A DNA stretch of 64,000 nt from the NCBI GenBank assembly GCA_028279405.1, contig JANQNU010000060.1, positions 186,001 through 250,000 of the forward strand, given 5' to 3'. Each line of letters starts with the position of its first letter. The first letter of the stretch is position 1. Source of the DNA: Phycisphaerae bacterium (GTDB taxonomy: Bacteria; Planctomycetota; Phycisphaerae; UBA1845; Fen-1342). The translations under genes and the position numbers were made by a program. Under the pieces are notes generated by a model. The model saw only the letters and a list, made by a program, of their open reading frames with translations, did not search any database and had not been told where the DNA came from. Below, piece by piece: positions 1-53,073 of the stretch.

Positions 1-414
1 AACCTCAGTGGTCGCAGCGTGGCGGCCTTGGCGCGTTTTTATCGCGTTCCACTGGCGGATGTCCTGGTTGTCTACGACGAGTTGGACTTGCCACTGGGGA
101 CGATTCGCGTCCGGGCGCGGGGCTCGGCCGGCGGGCACAACGGCATGTCCGACGTGATCCGTCATCTGAGCAGCGATCAGGTGGCGCGGGTACGCGTGGG
201 GATCGGCAAGGTGCACTCGGCGGCGACCGTCGAGCATGTGCTGAGCCGCTTCATGCCGAGCGAGCGCGAGGCCGCGGAGCAGGTGATCGACCTGGCGGCG
301 GACGCTGTGGAGTGCTGGCTGGCGCGTGGCGCCACTGAGGCGATGAACCAGTTTAATCGGAAGCCGGGCGGCCGGCGGAACACCGACGAGCCGTCCAAAG
401 GAGATCAGCGTTGA
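1..414 (+). CDS. pth: Peptidyl-tRNA hydrolase, 3' part (5' end outside window)
   Basis: Releases tRNA from prematurely terminated peptidyl-tRNA in the cytoplasm. The reading frame is open from the first base, so the gene begins before the window; about 137 C-terminal residues are present. Visible family motifs are NLSGRSV at the very start, VVYDELDLPLG containing the catalytic-region Asp, and GSAGGHNGM followed by RVRVGIG. The N-terminal catalytic His lies outside the window. The stop codon overlaps the TTG start of rpsF by three bases, so the two are probably translationally coupled. The tail is rich in Arg and Gly, which is common in this family. Confidence 0.95.
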   Translation, partial: NLSGRSVAALARFYRVPLADVLVVYDELDLPLGTIRVRARGSAGGHNGMSDVIRHLSSDQVARVRVGIGKVHSAATVEHVLSRFMPSEREAAEQVIDLAADAVECWLARGATEAMNQFNRKPGGRRNTDEPSKGDQR

Positions 415-17503: not shown

Positions 17504-17956
17504 TCAATCGCCGGCACCGAGCTCCTCGTTGAACACCAGCATCGTGATCATGTTCTCGCGTTGTTCATGCTGCGCAACGATCGCATTGAAGCGTTGGATT
17601 CGGGCACACGCGTCGGCGGCCAGCAACCGGTCCTCAGGCGTTGTCGCGGCCAGGTCGTCCCGGATGCTCTCGGCCATCTGCAACAGCTCGCCATGCTCGT
17701 GCTTGAGTCGGTCGACAACGCCGCTCAGACTGGGTCGGCGTTCCAGCAACTGGTCGAGCATGCCGCACTCCTCCTGCGTCTTGAACATACTCTGCAGATG
17801 GGAGTAATTGCGGTCGTACGCGGTCCGGAGCTCATTGAGCCAGCGCGTGATGTCAGCCTCCGGCATCGCCGCGATGTGCTCCTTGAGCACCTTGTTGAGC
17901 CCGAGTAGGGCTTGATAATGATCGCGCGCCTTGGGATTGGGCTGTGCTGCAGACAT
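17504..17956 (-). CDS. Hemerythrin-like (HHE) domain protein
   Basis: 150 residues, predicted all-helical and cytoplasmic. Conserved His/Glu pairs occur in RLKHEHGELLQMAESI and AIVAQHEQRENMITMLVF, the pattern of four-helix di-iron hemerythrin-like proteins. An earlier His lies near HIAAMPEADI. Such proteins bind oxygen or sense oxygen, nitric oxide or iron; which one applies cannot be read here. ATG 17956 has AAGGAG six bases upstream. A Cys at EECGML is not part of the motif. It is flanked by mutM and an HD-domain gene on the same strand. Confidence 0.75.
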   Translation of the reverse strand: MSAAQPNPKARDHYQALLGLNKVLKEHIAAMPEADITRWLNELRTAYDRNYSHLQSMFKTQEECGMLDQLLERRPSLSGVVDRLKHEHGELLQMAESIRDDLAATTPEDRLLAADACARIQRFNAIVAQHEQRENMITMLVFNEELGAGD

Positions 17957-18130
17957 GCCGGGCTCCTTCCATCCAGAACGAGAGCGCTTTCGGTCGACCC
18001 GCCGCCGGCTGCAATCAGTGGTGATGACCCGATCGCACCCCGCAGCACGCACCAGTGTAGCGCGCCGATCTGCGATCGTCACGAGAAATCGAGGAAACAG
18101 CGGGCCGTGCATCCGCCCACATCAAGCAGA

Positions 18131-19128: not shown

Positions 19129-20031
19129 ATGAGCACAACGGCCAATCAGTCGGGAATGCAGTCCGGCAGCAATCCGAAATCGCTTCCGCCCGAGCTGCAA
19201 AAGGCGATGTCCAAGGTCACGGACATCGCTTCGCTCCCCGAAATCACGACCCGCATCGTCGAGGTCGTCGAGGACCCGAAGGCCACCGCGCACGATATGC
19301 ACGAGATCGTCCGTAGCGATCCGGCCCTGGCCACCAAGATCCTCAAGGTCGTCAACTCGGCTTTCTACGGCTTGCCGTCGCAGATCGCGAGCCTCGACCG
19401 CGCAATCATTATGCTGGGCCTTTCAGCCGTCAAAAACATCGCGCTCGCGGCGTCCCTGACACGCTTTTTCAAAGGCGGCGAGCTCTCAGAGCACTTCGCA
19501 GCACGTGACTTGTGGCAACATTCGATCGCCGTCGGCGTATGCGCCAAGTCCATCGCCGACAAGGTCCGCTATGCCCAGGAAGAAGCGTTCGTTGGCGGAC
19601 TCGTGCACGACATGGGCCTGCTCGTCATCCAGCAGCTCTTCGCAGATCGGCTCAAGGAAGTCGCCGAGAAGTGCTACGCCGAGCCGCAGAACTTCCTCGA
19701 GCTCGAAACCAGCCTGATCGGCGCCGACCATCAAGCCTTCGGCGTCGCACTGGCCACGAAGTGGAAGTTCCCTCCAGCCCTGCGCTACGTCGTCTCATAC
19801 CACCACGATCCGCATCTGCTCAAGCCCGAGTTCCAGCGGCTGACGAGCATCATCTATATCGCCGACACGATCTGTTGCCAGAACAAGATCGGCTTCTGGC
19901 TCACCGGTGCCACCCAGGCGCTGACCGAGGAAGTGCTTGGCGCTGCTATGGTCACCCCCGACCAACTTCAGGAGGTCGCGCAAGAACTGCCCGAGCGACT
20001 CCAGGAGGCCGAGCAGATCTTCAACGAATAG
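19129..20031 (+). CDS. HDOD-domain regulatory protein
   Basis: 300 residues. A Ser/Asn-rich lead of 25 residues is followed by an HDOD domain at about 30-230. The stretch DPALATKILKVVNSAFYGLP and the region LDRAIIMLGLSAVKNIAL are typical. An HD doublet is retained in GGLVHDMGL, and SYHHDPHLL follows. HDOD proteins act in signalling, often with chemotaxis or second-messenger systems; catalysis is usually not shown. The start has AGGGA only three bases upstream. Its partner HDOD protein lies at 25901 in the chemosensory cluster. A strong terminator follows. Confidence 0.88.
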   Translation: MSTTANQSGMQSGSNPKSLPPELQKAMSKVTDIASLPEITTRIVEVVEDPKATAHDMHEIVRSDPALATKILKVVNSAFYGLPSQIASLDRAIIMLGLSAVKNIALAASLTRFFKGGELSEHFAARDLWQHSIAVGVCAKSIADKVRYAQEEAFVGGLVHDMGLLVIQQLFADRLKEVAEKCYAEPQNFLELETSLIGADHQAFGVALATKWKFPPALRYVVSYHHDPHLLKPEFQRLTSIIYIADTICCQNKIGFWLTGATQALTEEVLGAAMVTPDQLQEVAQELPERLQEAEQIFNE

Positions 20032-20130: not shown

Positions 20131-20463
20131 CTAGTGCGGGACCGGACACTGGCCGGCGCCGGTCGCGGCCTGATCGCTGGTACCGCCGTAGACTTCATGC
20201 TTCGGGGTGGTTTGCAGGATCTTGCTCTTGCCCCACGCAGTGACGCTGGCAAACTTGTCTGAGCCGGTGAACGCGCGGAAGGCCGTTTCCGTCTCCCACT
20301 GCGAGATCACCAGGTAGCTCTGCGGGTCGGTGACCGCTCGGAACAGGTGCGTTTCTTCGTGGCCGTCGAGCTCCGCCATCACGGTCAACACTTTGTCAAA
20401 GACCGTCTCGAACTCGACTTCCTTGCCCGGAATGACCTTGTAGTTCATGCCTACGGTGACCAT
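20131..20463 (-). CDS. Antibiotic biosynthesis monooxygenase (ABM) domain protein
   Basis: 110 residues, a single ferredoxin-like ABM domain. The pattern MVTVGMNYKVIPGKEVEFETVF, then HLFRAVTDPQSYLVISQWET and the final FRAFTGSDKFAS stretch, is typical. Members include haem-degrading and quinone monooxygenases; the role here is unknown. GGGAGG lies six bases before ATG 20463. It ends in a small Cys/Pro-containing tail. Transcription ends at the shared hairpin at 20066-20095. Confidence 0.8.
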   Translation of the reverse strand: MVTVGMNYKVIPGKEVEFETVFDKVLTVMAELDGHEETHLFRAVTDPQSYLVISQWETETAFRAFTGSDKFASVTAWGKSKILQTTPKHEVYGGTSDQAATGAGQCPVPH

Positions 20464-21862: not shown

Positions 21863-22345
21863 GTTCGCTTCCGTTGGCGTGCGACCGGGTGTCGCCGTCC
21901 GATATCCGTGCGGCCTAGAAAAGACCACCGCACCCGATCCTATCCCCGTATCGGCCCCGCGCCACCCCCTCCATTAGCTGACGGTGAGGCTCTCCGCGCC
22001 GGCGCCGCTGTTTCTCCGAGGGAAACTCTGAGGGTACTGGCGCATCGGTTTCGGTCCCGTCGAGGAGCCGACGACTCGGTAGCGGCGGTTCGTCCCGGCT
22101 CGTGTTGCGCATTCGTTTCTTGCGCGGAACGCGGCGTCCGGCCCGCAAATCCCGCTCCTAACTGAATGGTCCCTGAAGGCTGACCGATATCCATTGCGGG
22201 CCTCGTTGCAAGGAGCGGTTGCCTTGACCGCCGGGGCCGGTCGTGAATGGCCTTCGGGTTCGCTCGTCAGACGGATTTGTGCCCCCCGCGGCTACCACGG
22301 CCGATGTGAATCGAACAACTCGTTGAAACCTGTGAGGAGCCTCTG
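21863..22345. other. Gap before the five-PAS receptor gene
   Basis: 483 bases between the divergent MFS and receptor genes, so both promoters should lie here. Short open frames occur but none has a ribosome-binding site with family resemblance. No clear sigma-70 or sigma-28 pair, hairpin or repeat was found. GAGGAG at 22334-22339 is the ribosome-binding site of the receptor gene. Confidence 0.5.
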
Positions 22346-25273
22346 ATGTCCGACGCGGGCACGACCAACAACGTCAGCCTCAACACCCTCTCCACGATGC
22401 TCGATGAGAGTCCGACGCCGATGATGTTGGCGGATCAGGACCTCAACATCGTCTATATGAACAAGGTTTCACTCGAGAAGCTGCGGAGCGTCGAGCAGTA
22501 CCTGCCCTGTACGGCGGACCAGGTCGTCGGCCAGAGCATCGACTTCTTCCACAAACAGCCGGCGCATCAGCGGAAGCTGTTGAGCAATCCGCGAAACCTG
22601 CCGCATCAGACAATCATCGAGCTGGGACCGGAGAAGCTCGACCTGTTGGTCAGCCCGATCTTCGACGAGGGCGGCAAGCAGCAGGGCACGATGGTCACCT
22701 GGACGGTCGTGACGGAGAAGATCCGTGCCGAGGGCGAGCAGAAGCGGCTCCAGCAGATGGTCGAGAACTCGCCGACACCGGTGATTCTGGCCGACGCCGA
22801 CTTCAACATCACCTACATGAACCCGGTCTCGCTCGAAACGCTCAAGAGCGTGCAGCAGTATCTACCGTGCGCGGCCGAAGAGATCGTCGGGAAGAACGTC
22901 GACTTCTTCCACAAGAACCCATCCTACCAGCGCGGAATCCTGAGCAACCCGAAAGCCAATCTGCCGAAGCAAGCCATCATCGAGGTCGGCCCGGAGAAGC
23001 TGGACCTGCTGGTGAGCGGCATCTTCGATGACGACGGCAACTTCCTCGGACCGATGGTCACCTGGAGCGTCGTCACGCAGAAGCTCAAGGCCGAGGCAGA
23101 GCAGAAGCGGCTCGAGCAGATGGTCGAGAACTCGCCGACGCCGGTGATTCTGGCGGACGCCGACTTCAACATCACCTACATGAATCCGATCTCGCTCGAG
23201 ACACTCAAGAGCGTACAGCAGTACCTGCCCTGTACGGCGGAAGAAATCGTCGGGAAGAACATCGACTTCTTCCATAAGGACCCGTCATACCAGCGCGGCA
23301 TCCTGCGTGATCCGAAGCGCACGCTTCCGCGACAGGCGATCATCCAGGTCGGCCCGGAGAAGCTCGACCTGCTGGTCAGCGGCATCTTCGATGACGAGGA
23401 TAACTTCCTCGGACCGATGGTCACCTGGAGCGTGGTCACGCAAAAGCTCAAGGCCGAGGCAGAGCAGAAGCGCCTGCAGCAGATGGTGGAGAACTCGCCG
23501 ACGCCGGTGATGTTGGCCGACAAGGACCTGAACATCACCTACATGAACCCCATCTCGCTCAAGACCTTGAAGACGGTTGAGCAGTACCTGCCTTGCTCGG
23601 CGGACGACATCATCGGGAAGAGCGTCGACTTCTTCCACAAGGATCCGAGCTACCAGCGCGGCATCCTCGGCAACCCGAAGGCCAACCTGCCGCGGCAGGC
23701 GATCATTCAGGTCGGACCCGAGAAACTTGACCTGCTGGTCAGCCCGATCTTCGACGCCGACGGCGAATTCCTCGGACCGATGGTCACCTGGAGCGTCGTG
23801 ACGGCGAAGCTCAAGGCCGACTTCGAGTCGTCGATGAAGACGGCGATGATCGAGAACGCGCCGGTCAACATCATCCTGGCCGACAAGGACCTGACGATCA
23901 CGTACGTCAACCCGGCGACTGTCAAGAACCTGCAGCCGTACCAGCACTACCTGCCGGTGCCGCTCGACAAGGTCGTTGGAAGCTGCATCGATATCTTCCA
24001 CAAGAACCCGGCCGGTCCGCGGCAGATTCTCGCAGATCCCAAGAACCTTCCGCACCAGGCGAACATCCAGCTCGGCGACCAGACGCTCGATCTGCTGGTC
24101 AGCGCGATCTATGACAACAATAACGAATACGTTGGCCCGATGGTCACGTGGGAGAACATCACCGAGCGACTCAAGCTCGAAGAAGACACCAAGCGCATGT
24201 CCGAAGAAGCCCAGCAGCGCGAAGCGGAGCTGCGCGAGAAGGTCTCGGTCCTGCTGGAGACCGTCAACTCGGCCGCCAACGGCGACCTGACCACGGACGT
24301 CGCCATCGAGGGCGACGACGCGGTCGGCCAGATGGCGGAAGGCATGCGGAAGATGATCGGAAACCTGCGCGAGCTGATCGTCAAGATCAAGGAAGCGGTC
24401 GAGCAGGTGGGTGCCGGTGCGACCGAAGTCAGCTCGTCGTCGCAACAGCTCGCTGAAGGTGCCAGTGAGCAGGCCTCTTCGCTCGAAGAGACGTCCAGCG
24501 CGCTCGAAGAGATGACCGCCATGACGCGGACCAACGCCGAGAACGCCGGCAAGGCCGACGAGCTCAGCGGCCAGGCACGCAAGTCGGCGCTGGAAGGCAC
24601 GGACATCATGAAGCGCCTGACCGGCACGATGTCCGGGATCACCGATGCGTCGGAGCAGATCTCGAAGATCATCAAGGTCATCGAGGAGATCGCGTTCCAG
24701 ACCAACCTGCTCGCCTTGAACGCGGCCGTGGAAGCCGCACGGGCCGGCGAGCATGGCAAGGGCTTCGCAGTCGTCGCCGAAGAGGTTCGAAACCTGGCTC
24801 AGCGCAGTGCCCAGGCCGCAAAGGAAACGACGGCGCTGATCGAAAACTCGGTGAACCGGGCGAAGGAAGGCACGTCGGTCACCGGCGAAGCGGCCAAGGC
24901 GCTCGACTCGATCGTCGAGAACATCGGGAAGGTCGCCGAACTGATCAACGGCATCAATACCGCTTGCTCGGAACAGGCCCAGGGCATCGAGCAGATCAAC
25001 AACGCGGTCACGCAGATGGACAAGGTCACGCAACAGAACGCTGCGGGTGCCGAAGAGTCCGCCAGTGCGTCCGAAGAGATGAACGCCCAGGCGGTCTCGC
25101 TCAAGGAGATGGTCGATTCGTTCAAGGTCAGCGAAGAAGGCGCCGGGTCGCCATTCGGTGGCGGATCCAAGCCCGCCCCGTCGGCCAAACCGAAGGCTAA
25201 CGGGCGTACGGCGACCTCCAACGGCTCCGATGACGCCGCCTTCGAAAGTCTCGCCGACCTGGCTGAGTTCTGA
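22346..25273 (+). CDS. Soluble methyl-accepting chemotaxis protein with five tandem PAS domains
   Basis: 975 residues and no transmembrane segment, so it is cytoplasmic. Five PAS domains of about 121 residues fill positions 15-612. A HAMP-like stretch follows at about 635-690. The MCP signalling domain runs from about 690 to 925, with its hairpin tip at 781-822 ([19 protein letters not shown]). Each PAS unit has a conserved His in [FI]FHK (69, 189, 310, 431, 552) and a Trp in MVTW (119, 240, 361, 482, 602). These resemble the haem-ligand His and ligand-binding Trp of Aer2-type PAS domains, so oxygen sensing is inferred. A Gly/Pro/Ala tail ends in LAEF. cheD, an HDOD gene and cheY follow. Confidence 0.92.
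22400..24165 (+). repeat. Five 363-bp tandem repeats encoding PAS domains
   Basis: Units two to four are nearly identical at the DNA level with a period of 363 bases, measured on the conserved GAGAACTC segment at 22763, 23126 and 23489. Units one and five are more diverged. This indicates recent internal duplication within an older array. Confidence 0.9.
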
Positions 25274-25291
25274 TTCGCAGGGTGAAGGCTG

Positions 25292-25323
25292 GCCGGGAGG
25301 AGCCCGACGGGGGCTCCTCCGGC
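25292..25323 (+). terminator. Strong hairpin between the receptor and cheD genes
   Basis: GCCGG-AGGAGCCC pairs with GGGCTCCTCCGGC, 13 base pairs with one bulged G and a GACGG loop. It is followed by ACTTTCC. It lies in the 88-base gap between the receptor gene and cheD and could be a partial terminator that lowers cheD expression, or an RNA-stability element. Confidence 0.6.
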
Positions 25324-25361
25324 ACTTTCCAGAACCATCCTGAACGGAACCAGGCGGCGGA

Positions 25362-25901
25362 ATGAGCTCGACCAGCGTTGAACAGAAGAAACCCGGGCAG
25401 ACTGCGCTCCAGCGCCGATCGAAGAACGACATCGTCGTCGATATCGCGGACCTGGCAGTCTCCGGCGACGTCGACAAGACGCTCGTCACCTACTCGCTCG
25501 GAAGCTGTATCGGCGTCGCACTGTGGGACCCGGTGGCCAAGGTGGCCGGCATGCTGCACTACATGCTGCCCGAGTCCTCCATCTCCGCCGAGAAGGCCAA
25601 GGCCAACCCGGCGATGTTCTGCGACACCGGCATCCCCAAGCTGTTTCGGGCGGCCTATGAGCTGGGCGCCAGCAAGACCCGTATCGTGGTCAAGATCGCC
25701 GGCGGTTCCCAGCTGCTGGACGCGCAGGGGACGTTCAACATCGGGAAACGCAACTATCTGGCGCTTCGAAAGATCTTCTGGAAGAATGGCGTGATGGTCG
25801 AGACCGAGCACGTCGGCGGCAGCCTCAGCCGAACGTTGCGGCTGGAGGTCGGCACCGGGCGGACGAGCATCCGCTTTCGCGGTACCGAGGAGGTCCTCTG
25901 A
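25362..25901 (+). CDS. cheD: Chemoreceptor glutamine deamidase CheD
   Basis: Deamidates glutamines on chemoreceptors and can interact with CheC-type phosphatases. 179 residues. The catalytic set is visible: Thr43 and Cys49 in TYSLGSCIG and His66 in GMLHYMLPES. The first 25 residues are a polar extension. The natural substrate candidate is the five-PAS receptor upstream. The ribosome-binding site is a weak GGCGGA. The stop overlaps the ATG of the HDOD gene by one base, indicating coupling. Confidence 0.95.
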   Translation: MSSTSVEQKKPGQTALQRRSKNDIVVDIADLAVSGDVDKTLVTYSLGSCIGVALWDPVAKVAGMLHYMLPESSISAEKAKANPAMFCDTGIPKLFRAAYELGASKTRIVVKIAGGSQLLDAQGTFNIGKRNYLALRKIFWKNGVMVETEHVGGSLSRTLRLEVGTGRTSIRFRGTEEVL

Positions 25902-26758
25902 TGACGCAGACCATTCAGCAGCTCATCGAACGGGTCGAGTCGCTGCCGCGGATGCGCGACACCACCGTCCGGTTGATCGGAATGGTCAGCGACCCGTCCA
26001 CTCCGATCGGCGACATCGTCGACGTTCTGCGCTACGATCCGATCCTCACGACCGACTTGCTGCGCATCGCGAACTCCGCCGCTTCCGGCGTCGTTCGTCG
26101 CATCGAATCGGTCGAAGAGGCAGTCAAGCTCGTCGGTACCGGGCGTGTTCTGCAACTCGTGCTGGCGGCAAATACCCAGAGCGTGCTCGAAGCGCCGCAA
26201 GAAGGCTACGGGCTGTTCGAAGGGGCGCTCTGGCAACACTCGATCGCGACCGCGCTCGCTGGTCAGACGCTTGCCGCCTACTTGAAGCGACGTGACACCG
26301 GTGCGATCTACACGGCCGGGCTACTGCACGACATCGGCAAGGTTGTGCTGAACGAATGCGTCGCGGACGACTACGCCACGATCCTGCGGCTGGTTTCCGA
26401 GGAGGGCCATTCGTTCCTCGAAGCCGAGTCGAGCGTGCTCGGCTTTACGCACGCGGAGGCCGGGGCGCGCCTGGCGGAATGCTGGGGCCTGCCGCCGTCC
26501 ATCATCAAGTGCATCCGGTTCCATCACACTCCCGACGAATGCGAGGAGGACGTGCTCGTGGACCTGACCCACATTGCGGACACCATCGCGCTCTCCACCG
26601 GCATCGGCGGCGGCTACGACGGACTCGCCTATCGGGCGCACCCGGAAATCATCAAACGGTATGGCCTCAAGGAGCCCGACTTGGAACGCATCGGGCTCGA
26701 AACGATCACCGAGGTCAAGGATGTTCGTTCCTTGTTTGCAAGCGAAGCCGGGGTGTAA
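25901..26758 (+). CDS. HDOD-domain protein of the chemosensory operon
   Basis: 285 residues. The HDOD domain spans about 10-215. Features are SLPRMRDTTVRLIGMVSDPST, YDPILTTDLLRIANSAASG, and VEEAVKLVGTGRVLQLVL. The HD doublet is present in LLHDIGK, and IRFHHTPDE follows. This domain is less similar to the HDOD protein at 19129 than expected for a recent duplicate. It overlaps cheD by one base and is followed by cheY after three bases, so it is part of the receptor operon. HDOD function in such clusters is usually signal output or adaptation; here it is inferred. Confidence 0.88.
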   Translation: MTQTIQQLIERVESLPRMRDTTVRLIGMVSDPSTPIGDIVDVLRYDPILTTDLLRIANSAASGVVRRIESVEEAVKLVGTGRVLQLVLAANTQSVLEAPQEGYGLFEGALWQHSIATALAGQTLAAYLKRRDTGAIYTAGLLHDIGKVVLNECVADDYATILRLVSEEGHSFLEAESSVLGFTHAEAGARLAECWGLPPSIIKCIRFHHTPDECEEDVLVDLTHIADTIALSTGIGGGYDGLAYRAHPEIIKRYGLKEPDLERIGLETITEVKDVRSLFASEAGV

Positions 26759-26761
26759 ATC

Positions 26762-27184
26762 ATGGCGGCCAATATCCTCATTGTGGACGACTCGGCGACG
26801 ATGCGCCGGATGATCCGACGAACCCTCGAACTCGCCGGGCTGGACGTGGCCGAGATCATCGAGGCATCCAACGGAATCGAGGCCTTCGCCAAGCTCGGCC
26901 AGGCGCACGTCGACGTCATCATGCTCGATATCAATATGCCCGTCATGGGCGGCGTGCAGTTCATGGAACGTATCGCCGACGATCCGAAGCTCTCGCAGAT
27001 CCCCATCATCATCGCGTCGACAGAGGGCAGCGAGACGCGCATCGAGAAGCTCGTCGAAACGGGCGCCAAGGGTTACCTGCGCAAGCCGTTCCGGCCCGAA
27101 CAGGTCCGCAGCCTGCTCGAACCGTTCGTCGGTGTTCGCGAGCAACCCGCCGCGGCCCTCGACGACGACGATATGTCCTTCTAA
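26762..27184 (+). CDS. cheY: CheY-type response regulator
   Basis: 140 residues, a single receiver domain. The acidic pocket is Asp9-Asp10, the phosphorylation site is Asp56 in VIMLDINMP, the switch residue is Ser86 in IIIASTEGS, and the Lys is 108 in YLRKPF. It has no output domain, so it should act by protein-protein contact. It closes the receptor-cheD-HDOD operon, three bases after the HDOD stop. No cheA or cheW is in the window. The final Asp-rich tail (DDDDMSF) is unusual but short. Confidence 0.92.
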   Translation: MAANILIVDDSATMRRMIRRTLELAGLDVAEIIEASNGIEAFAKLGQAHVDVIMLDINMPVMGGVQFMERIADDPKLSQIPIIIASTEGSETRIEKLVETGAKGYLRKPFRPEQVRSLLEPFVGVREQPAAALDDDDMSF

Positions 27185-27212
27185 ACCCCGCCGCACTCCG
27201 AGCAGGCCAAGC

Positions 27213-27248
27213 GGGCGCTGCGGTTCACCCGACCGCGTTGTCGCCCGC
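27213..27248. terminator. Compound hairpin between convergent cheY and HAF-repeat genes
   Basis: Outer arms GCGGGCG (27213-27219) and CGCCCGC (27242-27248) enclose an inner stem GCGGT/ACCGC. The position between convergent genes supports termination in one or both directions. No T-run is present. Confidence 0.5.
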
Positions 27249-27262
27249 ACCCGTCCACCCGA

Positions 27263-28564
27263 TCATCCGCCCGTTACCAGCGCCACGAAACAGTTGATAT
27301 CGCCGACGCTGACCTGCTCATCTCCGGTGCAGTCACCCGCCAGAATGTCACAGTCTGGAAACTGCTTCGCATACGCCGTCGGATTCGTCAGCGCAAGTAC
27401 GAACGCGTTGATGTCCCCGACGCTGACCGTGCCGTCGCAGTTGAGGTCGCCAGTGAGCGGTCCGGTCGGCGTCAACTCGGCGCGCCAGGCTTCGATAACG
27501 CCATCCGGGTTGATGCCGGTGCCCACGATGACGGTTCCATCGTCGCTGATGCCGTTGGCCGACTGTAAGGTCCAGTCGGTCAGTTCCGCAGCCAGACCGT
27601 ACTCGTCGATGAGCACGTCGCGCAGGTTCTGCATGCCGTCCGCGACGGTCCAGAGAAAGGCGCGGTCGCCGTCGGCGGTGCTTCCCTGGCCGACGATCCG
27701 CGACCCGTCGGCCGACATCGCGCGCGCACTGCTATTGAATCCGCCACCCGCAAGATCGCCGAGCCCAACCATGCCGCCGGCCTCTGTCCAGCGGAACGCC
27801 TCCGGCCCGTTTGCGGAGCGGCCGGTGCCGGAGACCACCTGCCCGTCGGACGAGATTGCATTTGCGCTGCTTGCGAAGGTGCCGCCGGCCAGATCGCCCA
27901 GTCCGACGATGCCGCCCGTAGCGGTCCAGCGAAACGCTTCGGCGCCATTCTCCGAGGTTCCGTCTCCGACGATGACCGTTCCATCCGCCGATACGGCGAG
28001 TGCCAGACTCTCGAAGAAGCTGCCTTCGAGATCGCCGATCCCTTCGAGGCCACCGCCGGGCGTCCAGCGGAACGCCTCGAAACCGCTGGTCGATGTGCCT
28101 TGACCGACGACAACCTGTCCGTCCGCGGACACGTCCCGGCCGATGCTCCCGAAAACGGCGCCGGGCAGATCGCCGATGCCGGTGATCCCATCCGCCATTG
28201 TCCAGCGAAATGCTTCTGACCCATCGCTCCCGAACGCGGTCCCTACCACGACGGCGCCGTCGGCCGAGGCGGCCTGGGCGAAGCTCAGAAACGGTCCGCC
28301 CGCTAGGTCGCCGATTCCGGTCATTACGTCCGCGGCCCAACGGAAGGCCTCTGTCCCATTGGTGGACTGCGAGAACCCGACGACCACCAACCCATCGCCG
28401 GAAACACCGTTTGCCGAGCTGCCAACGAGGCCGCCGGGCAGGTCGCCGAGGCCGTGAAACTCCGCCCCAACACCTGTGCTGATGCCCCCGATGGCTGCCA
28501 ACAGCGCCATCGAAATCCTCACGCGCAGGGTCTGCGCGCTCCGAACCGTATCGTCGTGCAACAT
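27263..28564 (-). CDS. Secreted HAF-repeat protein with C-terminal dockerin-like motif pair
   Basis: 433 residues with a signal peptide (about 1-32, ending GVGA). About seven imperfect repeats of about 45 residues follow, each with LGDLAGG-like and GEAFRWT-like elements, the HAF-repeat pattern, and SADG...VVG between them. The C-terminal 70 residues hold two calcium-loop motifs, GDLNCDGTVSVGDIN and GDCTGDEQVSVGDIN, as in planctomycete dockerin-like tails. An extracellular or surface role is likely; the substrate is unknown. ATG 28564 has AAGGAGG upstream. The gene converges with cheY. Confidence 0.85.
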   Translation of the reverse strand: MLHDDTVRSAQTLRVRISMALLAAIGGISTGVGAEFHGLGDLPGGLVGSSANGVSGDGLVVVGFSQSTNGTEAFRWAADVMTGIGDLAGGPFLSFAQAASADGAVVVGTAFGSDGSEAFRWTMADGITGIGDLPGAVFGSIGRDVSADGQVVVGQGTSTSGFEAFRWTPGGGLEGIGDLEGSFFESLALAVSADGTVIVGDGTSENGAEAFRWTATGGIVGLGDLAGGTFASSANAISSDGQVVSGTGRSANGPEAFRWTEAGGMVGLGDLAGGGFNSSARAMSADGSRIVGQGSTADGDRAFLWTVADGMQNLRDVLIDEYGLAAELTDWTLQSANGISDDGTVIVGTGINPDGVIEAWRAELTPTGPLTGDLNCDGTVSVGDINAFVLALTNPTAYAKQFPDCDILAGDCTGDEQVSVGDINCFVALVTGG

Positions 28565-52302: not shown

Positions 52303-53073
52303 ATGAGCAGCGACTACGAAACTCCATACGACCCTGCTGAAAGCGACCGTTGGGCCGCGGAAGCGGGTCTTGCATCCGGCGCGTCTGATTCCGAAAGCGC
52401 ATCGGACGAGGTGGCGAGTGCTGACACGCTGCGCGAATGGCTGCTCCGCGCCACCGATGTTTGCCAGCAGGCGTCGCGTGGTCACCTCGAAGCGCGGTTG
52501 CTGCGGATCGGTAGCGATCCTGAGATCGCAGCGTTTGCCCATGCGATCAATCATATGTTGGACATGACTGACGCCTTCGTGCGTGAGGCGACAGCTTCTT
52601 TGCAGCATGCGAGCGAAGGCAAGTTCTTTCGACGCGTCCTGCTCAACGGGATGCTCGGTTCGTTTCGGGCGGCCGCGGTGTCGATCAACGACGCCACGCA
52701 AGCGATGCACGCGAAAACCGACGAACTCAAGGCCGCCGAGCGCCGTCGACTCGATCTTGCGGACGAGGTGAAGGAGACGGTCGAGGTCGTCGAAGGTCTG
52801 ATGGAGACGTCCAACCGGATCGCGGACTTTTCGGGCGTCATCGGGCGGATTGCGCGGCAGACCAACATTCTCGCGATCAACGCGAGTATCGAAGCGGCGC
52901 GGGTCGGCGATGCGGGCCGCGGGTTCGCAGTGGTCGCTGGCGAGGTCAAAAAACTCGCAACCCAGACCGCCGACGCTGCCAAGCGGATTGTCGAAGAGCT
53001 GGGGCAGATCCGCGAGGCGACGGGCGCATCGGTCAAGTCCATCGAGCACATCTGGAAAACCATCCAATCCTGA
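52303..53073 (+). CDS. Short soluble MCP-type signalling protein
   Basis: 256 residues. No transmembrane segment. A helical region of about 130 residues ([17 protein letters not shown] and on) is followed by a truncated MCP tip at about 180-225 ([34 protein letters not shown]) that ends shortly after. The typical second half of the hairpin is shorter than in full receptors. It is translated from the same operon as the PAS protein and may form the output part of a two-piece sensor. No CheA in the window. Confidence 0.78.

Follow-up and report, generated by a model that had tools for sequence, protein, structure and literature searches.

Oxygen receptors of the Aer2 kind have been described in several bacteria. 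Aer2 (McpB) of Pseudomonas aeruginosa is a soluble haem PAS chemoreceptor in which one PAS domain is flanked by three and two HAMP domains, and its role in aerotaxis is debated (PMC13401364). Its C-terminal GWEEF binds CheR2 and CheB2 (PMC7698151). The Aer2 receptors of Vibrio vulnificus and Vibrio cholerae carry three and two N-terminal PAS-haem domains, respectively (PMC13401364). In V. vulnificus, all three PAS domains bind haem and have a similar O2 affinity, and the units differ in signalling role: PAS2 modulates PAS3, and PAS3 communicates with the downstream part of the receptor (PMC13401364). Leptospira interrogans Aer2 is an oxygen receptor with three N-terminal PAS units that gives a response of opposite sign in E. 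coli, and it is membrane-bound according to a title cited in the same source (PMC13401364).

In a survey of PAS domains (Sci Adv 2023), Aer2-type haem PAS domains were assigned to PAS cluster 119 and the FixL/DosP type to cluster 3, and a His in the E-eta region was identified as the residue on which haem binding chiefly depends in the Aer2 cluster (PMC10468136). The residue required on F-alpha is a Trp in FAD-type PAS domains and a His in haem PAS domains of the FixL type (PMC10468136). The haem-ligand His position of P. aeruginosa Aer2 is H234 (PMC13401364).

The receptor reported here is a longer addition to the known multi-PAS-haem Aer2 kind, for which one to three units have been described so far. 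It is probably a cytoplasmic oxygen chemoreceptor of the Aer2 type that senses through haem, its sensor part enlarged to five PAS units.

Receptor gene and domain organization

The receptor gene lies at 22346..25273 on the + strand of the window (the whole 64,000-nucleotide stretch of DNA that was analysed) and encodes a protein of 975 aa, its ORF, length and frame being as stated in the first-pass annotation. The ATG start is directly preceded by a Shine-Dalgarno-like GAGGAG. Antisense to the gene there is a 734-aa open frame (23285-25489, – strand), most likely an effect of the high GC content.

The protein consists of five PAS units (~121 aa each), followed by a HAMP domain and an MCP signalling domain. 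PAS families of Pfam cover the first 610 residues, and DNA repeats with a spacing of 360-363 nt span about aa 12-614. The units, all on the + strand, are unit 1 (22379..22738, aa 12-131, as seen in a model of the array, with His69 and Trp119), unit 2 (22739..23101, aa 132-252, His189 and Trp240), unit 3 (23102..23464, aa 253-373, His310 and Trp361), unit 4 (23465..23827, aa 374-494, His431 and Trp482) and the HAMP-proximal unit 5 (23828..24187, aa 495-614, His552 and Trp602). A whole-genome search also recovered the five copies first annotated, and no sixth copy elsewhere in the genome. Examination of the hydropathy of all 19-mers revealed no transmembrane-like segment, the highest Kyte-Doolittle mean (1.04) falling within the MCP tip, which supports the earlier description of the receptor as soluble.

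The HAMP domain (24251..24373, + strand, aa 636-676) scores 20.5 bits, under the Pfam cut-off of 25, and the HAMP domain of an orthologue, L030, scores 27.7 bits, over the same cut-off. The MCP signalling domain (24560..25030, + strand, aa 739-895) matches PF00015 at 2.3e-52. The best NCBIfam match of the whole protein is the Vibrio Aer2 model NF041847 (817.4 bits, E 1.3e-245), to which the HAMP-MCP part aligns over residues 636-931 (296 residues). The curated equivalog cut-off of this model is 1200 bits, and the receptor is thus related to Vibrio Aer2 but not the same equivalog.

Like the Vibrio receptors, the protein couples an N-terminal row of Aer2-type PAS units, with the His and Trp conserved, to HAMP and MCP in a single chain. 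It differs from them in having five units rather than three or two, in a shorter loop ahead of the His (~5 residues shorter than in Aer2 by alignment), in its planctomycete host and in adjoining a cheD-HDOD-cheY cluster. Its PAS row also resembles the three N-terminal units of the L. interrogans receptor. With P. aeruginosa Aer2 it shares a soluble PAS architecture, the unit fold (to 1.2 A), a His on the position of H234 and an acidic-aromatic C-terminus, haem in the planctomycete receptor being predicted. However, it has five PAS units and one HAMP domain in place of one PAS domain between poly-HAMP flanks, and the DxT motif is absent; orthology with P. aeruginosa Aer2 is rejected on these grounds.

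Aer2-type character of the PAS units

The PAS region was compared with all PDB chain sequences, and only 3vol (3e-19), 4hi4 (9e-17) and 6ceq (3e-15) were retrieved. All three are haem PAS domains of Aer2, the first two from P. aeruginosa and the third from V. cholerae. When 75 units from the receptor and its relatives were combined in a profile, the PDB again yielded these three entries and nothing more. The motifs [FI]FHK (FFHK in units 1-4, IFHK in unit 5) and MVTW (5/5 units) are present as first annotated, each of the His and Trp residues given above was confirmed by codon, and the claimed spacing of about 50 residues is 50-51 in all five units.

The alignment pairs FHK of unit 1 with the FHK of Aer2, and MVTW with AVQW. 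HMM alignments to 3vol, 4hi4 and 6ceq, together with the structure, place the E-eta-region His of all five units on Aer2 H234. The I-beta Trp of all five units aligns with W283, with the register set by model residue 113 on Aer2 287, and in 3vol itself the Trp was counted 49 residues past the His, fitting H234 and W283. W283 is the Trp at the O2 site of Aer2; its role is reportedly treated in Sawai 2012 and Garcia 2017. Unit 1 additionally carries His74, at the position of Aer2 H239. Units 1-4 have VVT and unit 5 has NIT where Aer2 carries its DxT signalling motif, which is thus not conserved.

An AlphaFold2 model of unit 2 (pLDDT 92, pTM 0.83) was searched with Foldseek, which returned the three Aer2 entries on top. 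VIA-align gave Z 17.7 for 4hi4 (1.2 A over 111 residues), 17.2 for 3vol and 14.9 for 6ceq, compared to 11.8 for the best non-Aer2 fold. Residues 1..113 of the model superpose on Aer2 172..287, so that unit 2 lies on a haem-bound crystal structure; the model does not place the His away from the pocket, the outcome that the first-pass annotation had named as refuting its claim. A model of the array (700 residues) showed five well-predicted PAS units, of which units 4, 2 and 5 were matched by 3vol, 4hi4 and 6ceq, respectively (unit 4 with 3vol as its best match at Z 16.5, unit 5 with 6ceq at Z 14.8). The PAS fold is thus nearest Aer2 by model in units 2, 4 and 5, and by sequence only in units 1 and 3. 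The units are connected by linker helices (122-140, 244-261, 365-382 and 486-503), and downstream of unit 5 the model has a helix (606-644) and, after a break, a second one (659-699), as expected for HAMP; the overall pTM of 0.42 means that the relative placement of the units is not to be trusted. Since the only PDB matches and the best structural match are both Aer2, and the His and Trp align with H234 and W283, the central claim of the first-pass annotation, Aer2-type PAS units with a predicted axial His and O2-site Trp, is supported by the computational evidence.

Two other PAS types were considered and rejected. In FixL/DosP-type haem PAS domains the His is on F-alpha, whereas here it comes after a short helix (54-57), the E-eta place, and the Z scores are 10.8 for DOS and 10.5 for FixL against 17.7 for Aer2. 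In FAD-binding PAS domains of the Aer/NifL type a Trp is required on F-alpha, whereas the sole invariant Trp of these units is residue 109, on the last strand.

Eight columns (N28, G51, D55, F57, H58, P61, P76 and W109) do not vary across 75 diverse units, and these include both the His (58 in unit numbering) and the Trp (109). Among 202 high-scoring, closely related units from outside the window, the His is present in 201/202 and the Trp in 202/202, a sample that is partly biased for the His because one retrieval pattern contained FHK. Units retrieved by profile search (n = 59) have the His in 48/59 and the Trp in 56/59. The His-less units of the relatives, mostly weak-scoring first units of other receptors, retain the Trp in 10/13 cases, and conservation of the Trp alone is therefore no proof of a haem site.

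The units might have the Aer2 fold and yet bind no ligand, or a different one, with the His and Trp serving the fold or some other cofactor. The persistence of the Trp in His-less units and the lack of a conserved DxT would fit such a role, as would the ferrochelatase search: ferrochelatase (PF00762) was not found in the genome of the receptor or in most of its family, being absent in 33/41 of the neighbourhood genomes searched (present in 8/41). For AhbD, nothing scored above cut-off in the receptor's genome. These missing matches are a caveat on haem supply and not a refutation. The genome does use haem, since it encodes two COX1 proteins and one haem A synthase (CtaA), and the His and Trp align with the haem ligand and the O2-site residue in the only relatives of known structure. 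Furthermore, the His is the primary haem-binding determinant in the Aer2 cluster, and the FAD-type Trp and the FixL-type His both sit in a different place, on F-alpha (PMC10468136). Binding of another ligand, or of none, consequently appears very unlikely to us, and the haem interpretation of the five units is well supported by homology.

Divergence of the units and long arrays in relatives

Units 2-4 had been described as almost identical and recently expanded, and both descriptions proved too strong. Protein identity is 89% for units 2/3, 82% for 2/4 and 79% for 3/4, and DNA identity is 81-88%. The pairwise dS of 0.48-0.62 (dN 0.055-0.14) indicates that the copies are not recent on a strain scale. 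With dN/dS at about 0.11-0.24, purifying selection has acted on the copies ever since they were duplicated. At fourfold sites, between 15/51 and 19/47 (29-40%) differ among the three units, and duplication of the array as an artefact of assembly is rejected on this basis. Unit 1 is 59-63% identical to the other units, and unit 5 is 43-48% identical to the others.

Selection may, however, have acted on the fold, in which case only some of the five units would be haem-loaded sensors and the rest spacers or dimerisation modules. Part of the His and Trp invariance among recent copies is inherited, several of the eight invariant columns (N28, G51, P61 and P76) are probably structural, and His-less first units occur in otherwise haem-type receptors, such as L086, L091 and L107; in addition, the three units of V. 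vulnificus Aer2 differ in role (PMC13401364). Yet both key residues are present in all five units at a dS of 0.5-1.0 between units, which argues for selection on each pocket, and the V. vulnificus receptor bound haem in all three of its units (PMC13401364). Partial loading is thus possible, if somewhat unlikely, and a haem in each of the five units is the reading that we prefer.

A tree of 99 units, which rests on 115 columns and is rough in its inner branching, placed unit 5 in a clade (support 100/99) whose members are mostly last, HAMP-proximal units from related receptors. Another clade (94/86) holds units 1-4 beside upstream units of relatives, with unit 3 as the sister of unit 2. The separate position of unit 5 implies that the upstream units multiplied while the putative relay unit stayed single. 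Separate duplications of upstream units seem to have taken place in L133 (units 2 and 3), L147, L017, L049, L008 and L086. Because these duplications are separate and the last units form a clade of their own, the ancestral form in the order probably had at least one upstream unit and one last unit, with growth upstream. A polar residue at the DxT position was considered as a mark of the relay unit and rejected, as it occurs in 18/98 last units and 22/128 upstream units (Fisher p 0.86).

Among 142 relative ORFs, units with both His and Trp number one in 40 ORFs, two in 69, three in 26, four in 6 and five in 1, the sole five-unit ORF being the receptor at 22346-25273. The ORFs include genes that were retrieved twice and genes truncated at contig ends, and the retrieval favours close relatives; the counts are not population frequencies. 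A proteobacterium (L049) and planctomycetes (L017, L133, L145 and L006/L143) have four-unit receptors. In a more distant receptor from another planctomycete, L158 (1452-5453; G017 contig 72), seven Aer2-type units are followed by an MCP domain, and five units as a record length is thereby rejected. Like the five-unit receptor, L158 is a soluble-looking Aer2-type array joined to an MCP domain, but it has more units and a longer, Aer2-like loop. The Trp is present in 7/7 of its units and the FH motif in 6/7, N masking the His position of the remaining unit; its inner units are 88-94% identical in DNA, in a stretch whose assembly contains 16 N. L158 ends in an acidic-aromatic tail, DDDNLGRY.

The array had been called unusual. 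It is indeed rare, but it is not unique, given the four-unit receptors and the seven-unit one, and receptors with two or three PAS-haem domains have been described (PMC13401364). Long arrays recur, as the four-unit receptors and L158 show, and five is not an upper limit. A search of open-licence papers found none on PAS-haem arrays longer than three units.

Gene neighbourhood, chemotaxis genes and proposed signalling

The receptor gene heads a cluster that continues with cheD, encoding a receptor deamidase (25362..25901, + strand, Pfam CheD 2.7e-26), a gene for an HDOD domain protein (25901..26758, + strand, Pfam HDOD 2.3e-55), whose start overlaps the cheD stop, and a gene for a CheY-like response regulator (26762..27184, + strand, Pfam Response_reg 2.1e-26), 3 nt past the HDOD gene. 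The same receptor-cheD-HDOD-cheY order, with HDOD inside the cheD-cheY cluster, is found in L030, of the same family. A scan of 22000-27500 for promoters and terminators, with a scanner for sigma-70-like sites only, gave nothing. A second HDOD gene lies on the other flank of the receptor gene (19129-20031, + strand). At 2-5 kb upstream, on the – strand, are genes for a weak hemerythrin-domain protein (17504-18112; 25.9 bits against a cut-off of 25.3) and an ABM-domain protein (20131-20463), which could touch oxygen chemistry.

The orthologue L030/L138 resembles the receptor in gene order and in its HAMP-MCP type. It has two haem-type PAS units and an ELADF end, and unlike the receptor it has two TM segments and an extracytoplasmic domain ahead of its PAS units. 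The sensor part before the conserved core of unit 5, HAMP and MCP has therefore been swapped or extended from one genus to another.

The receptor ends in DLAEF (25256..25270, + strand). This is a candidate tether for adaptation enzymes by comparison with Aer2 GWEEF, from which it differs in lacking a Trp. Acidic-aromatic C-termini without Trp are also found in L139 (GLAEF), L030/L138 (ELADF) and L152/L153 (DLSNF), and by analogy with Aer2 these tails, too, are possible docking sites for such enzymes. The pentapeptides sit at the end of long low-complexity tails.

In the genome, which is 95.5% complete in 92 contigs, MCPsignal was found twice, both times within the window: in the receptor and in a 256-aa mini-MCP (52303-53073, + strand) whose match to MCPsignal is confined to positions 13-117 of 172 and which has no recognised sensor domain. 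The receptor is therefore the only full-length MCP found in this genome. CheA and CheW are encoded on contig 23, and a further CheW-domain protein on contig 70; only one CheA, which carries a CheW domain, was found. Flagellin has four matches.

We infer haem and O2 binding by the units from their homology to Aer2 and propose the following route for the signal. The E-eta-region His of every unit most likely binds one b-type haem, and O2 would bind opposite the His, beside the Trp on the last strand. Occupancy by O2 would alter the PAS fold, and the change would travel from unit to unit along continuous linker helices. Through unit 5 and HAMP, the signal would reach the MCP hairpin and set the activity of CheA; the flagella would respond through CheY, with CheD and methylation resetting the receptor. 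Unit 5 would act as the relay and units 1-4 as modulators, a division suggested by phylogeny and by analogy with V. vulnificus Aer2; the separate ancestry of unit 5 fits it. The extra units may serve affinity tuning, cooperativity or plain signal gain, among which the sequence does not choose. The first-pass annotation had suggested a tuning of affinity or dynamic range; in the three-PAS receptor of V. vulnificus, the units are alike in O2 affinity and differ in signalling role (PMC13401364).

The output of the receptor would be aerotaxis. The receptor might also sense oxygen but feed another CheA-controlled process than swimming, as its gene adjoins HDOD genes, cheA and cheW are far off on another contig, and the aerotaxis role of P. 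aeruginosa Aer2 is itself debated (PMC13401364). On the other hand, the one CheA found carries a CheW domain, flagellins are present, and genes for CheD and CheY follow the receptor gene directly. We consider an output other than swimming unlikely and retain aerotaxis as the preferred output.

A bolder reading, which we put forward as doubtful, is that the chemotaxis of this flagellated bacterium runs on essentially one receptor, which reads oxygen through ten haems per dimer. With repeated expansions of the upstream units in separate lineages and a HAMP-proximal unit that remained single, the array would then count oxygen at several sites, in a graded or cooperative way, and pass the result to a single relay unit.

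Multi-PAS-haem receptors with two and three units are known. The four-, five- and seven-unit arrays, independently expanded in several lineages and with the last unit apart, offer a natural series for studying whether additional haem units alter affinity, cooperativity or signal gain, and so for asking why a receptor should have several equal sensors. Since the five-unit receptor is the only full-length MCP found in its genome, its stimulus would be nearly the whole chemotaxis input of the organism.
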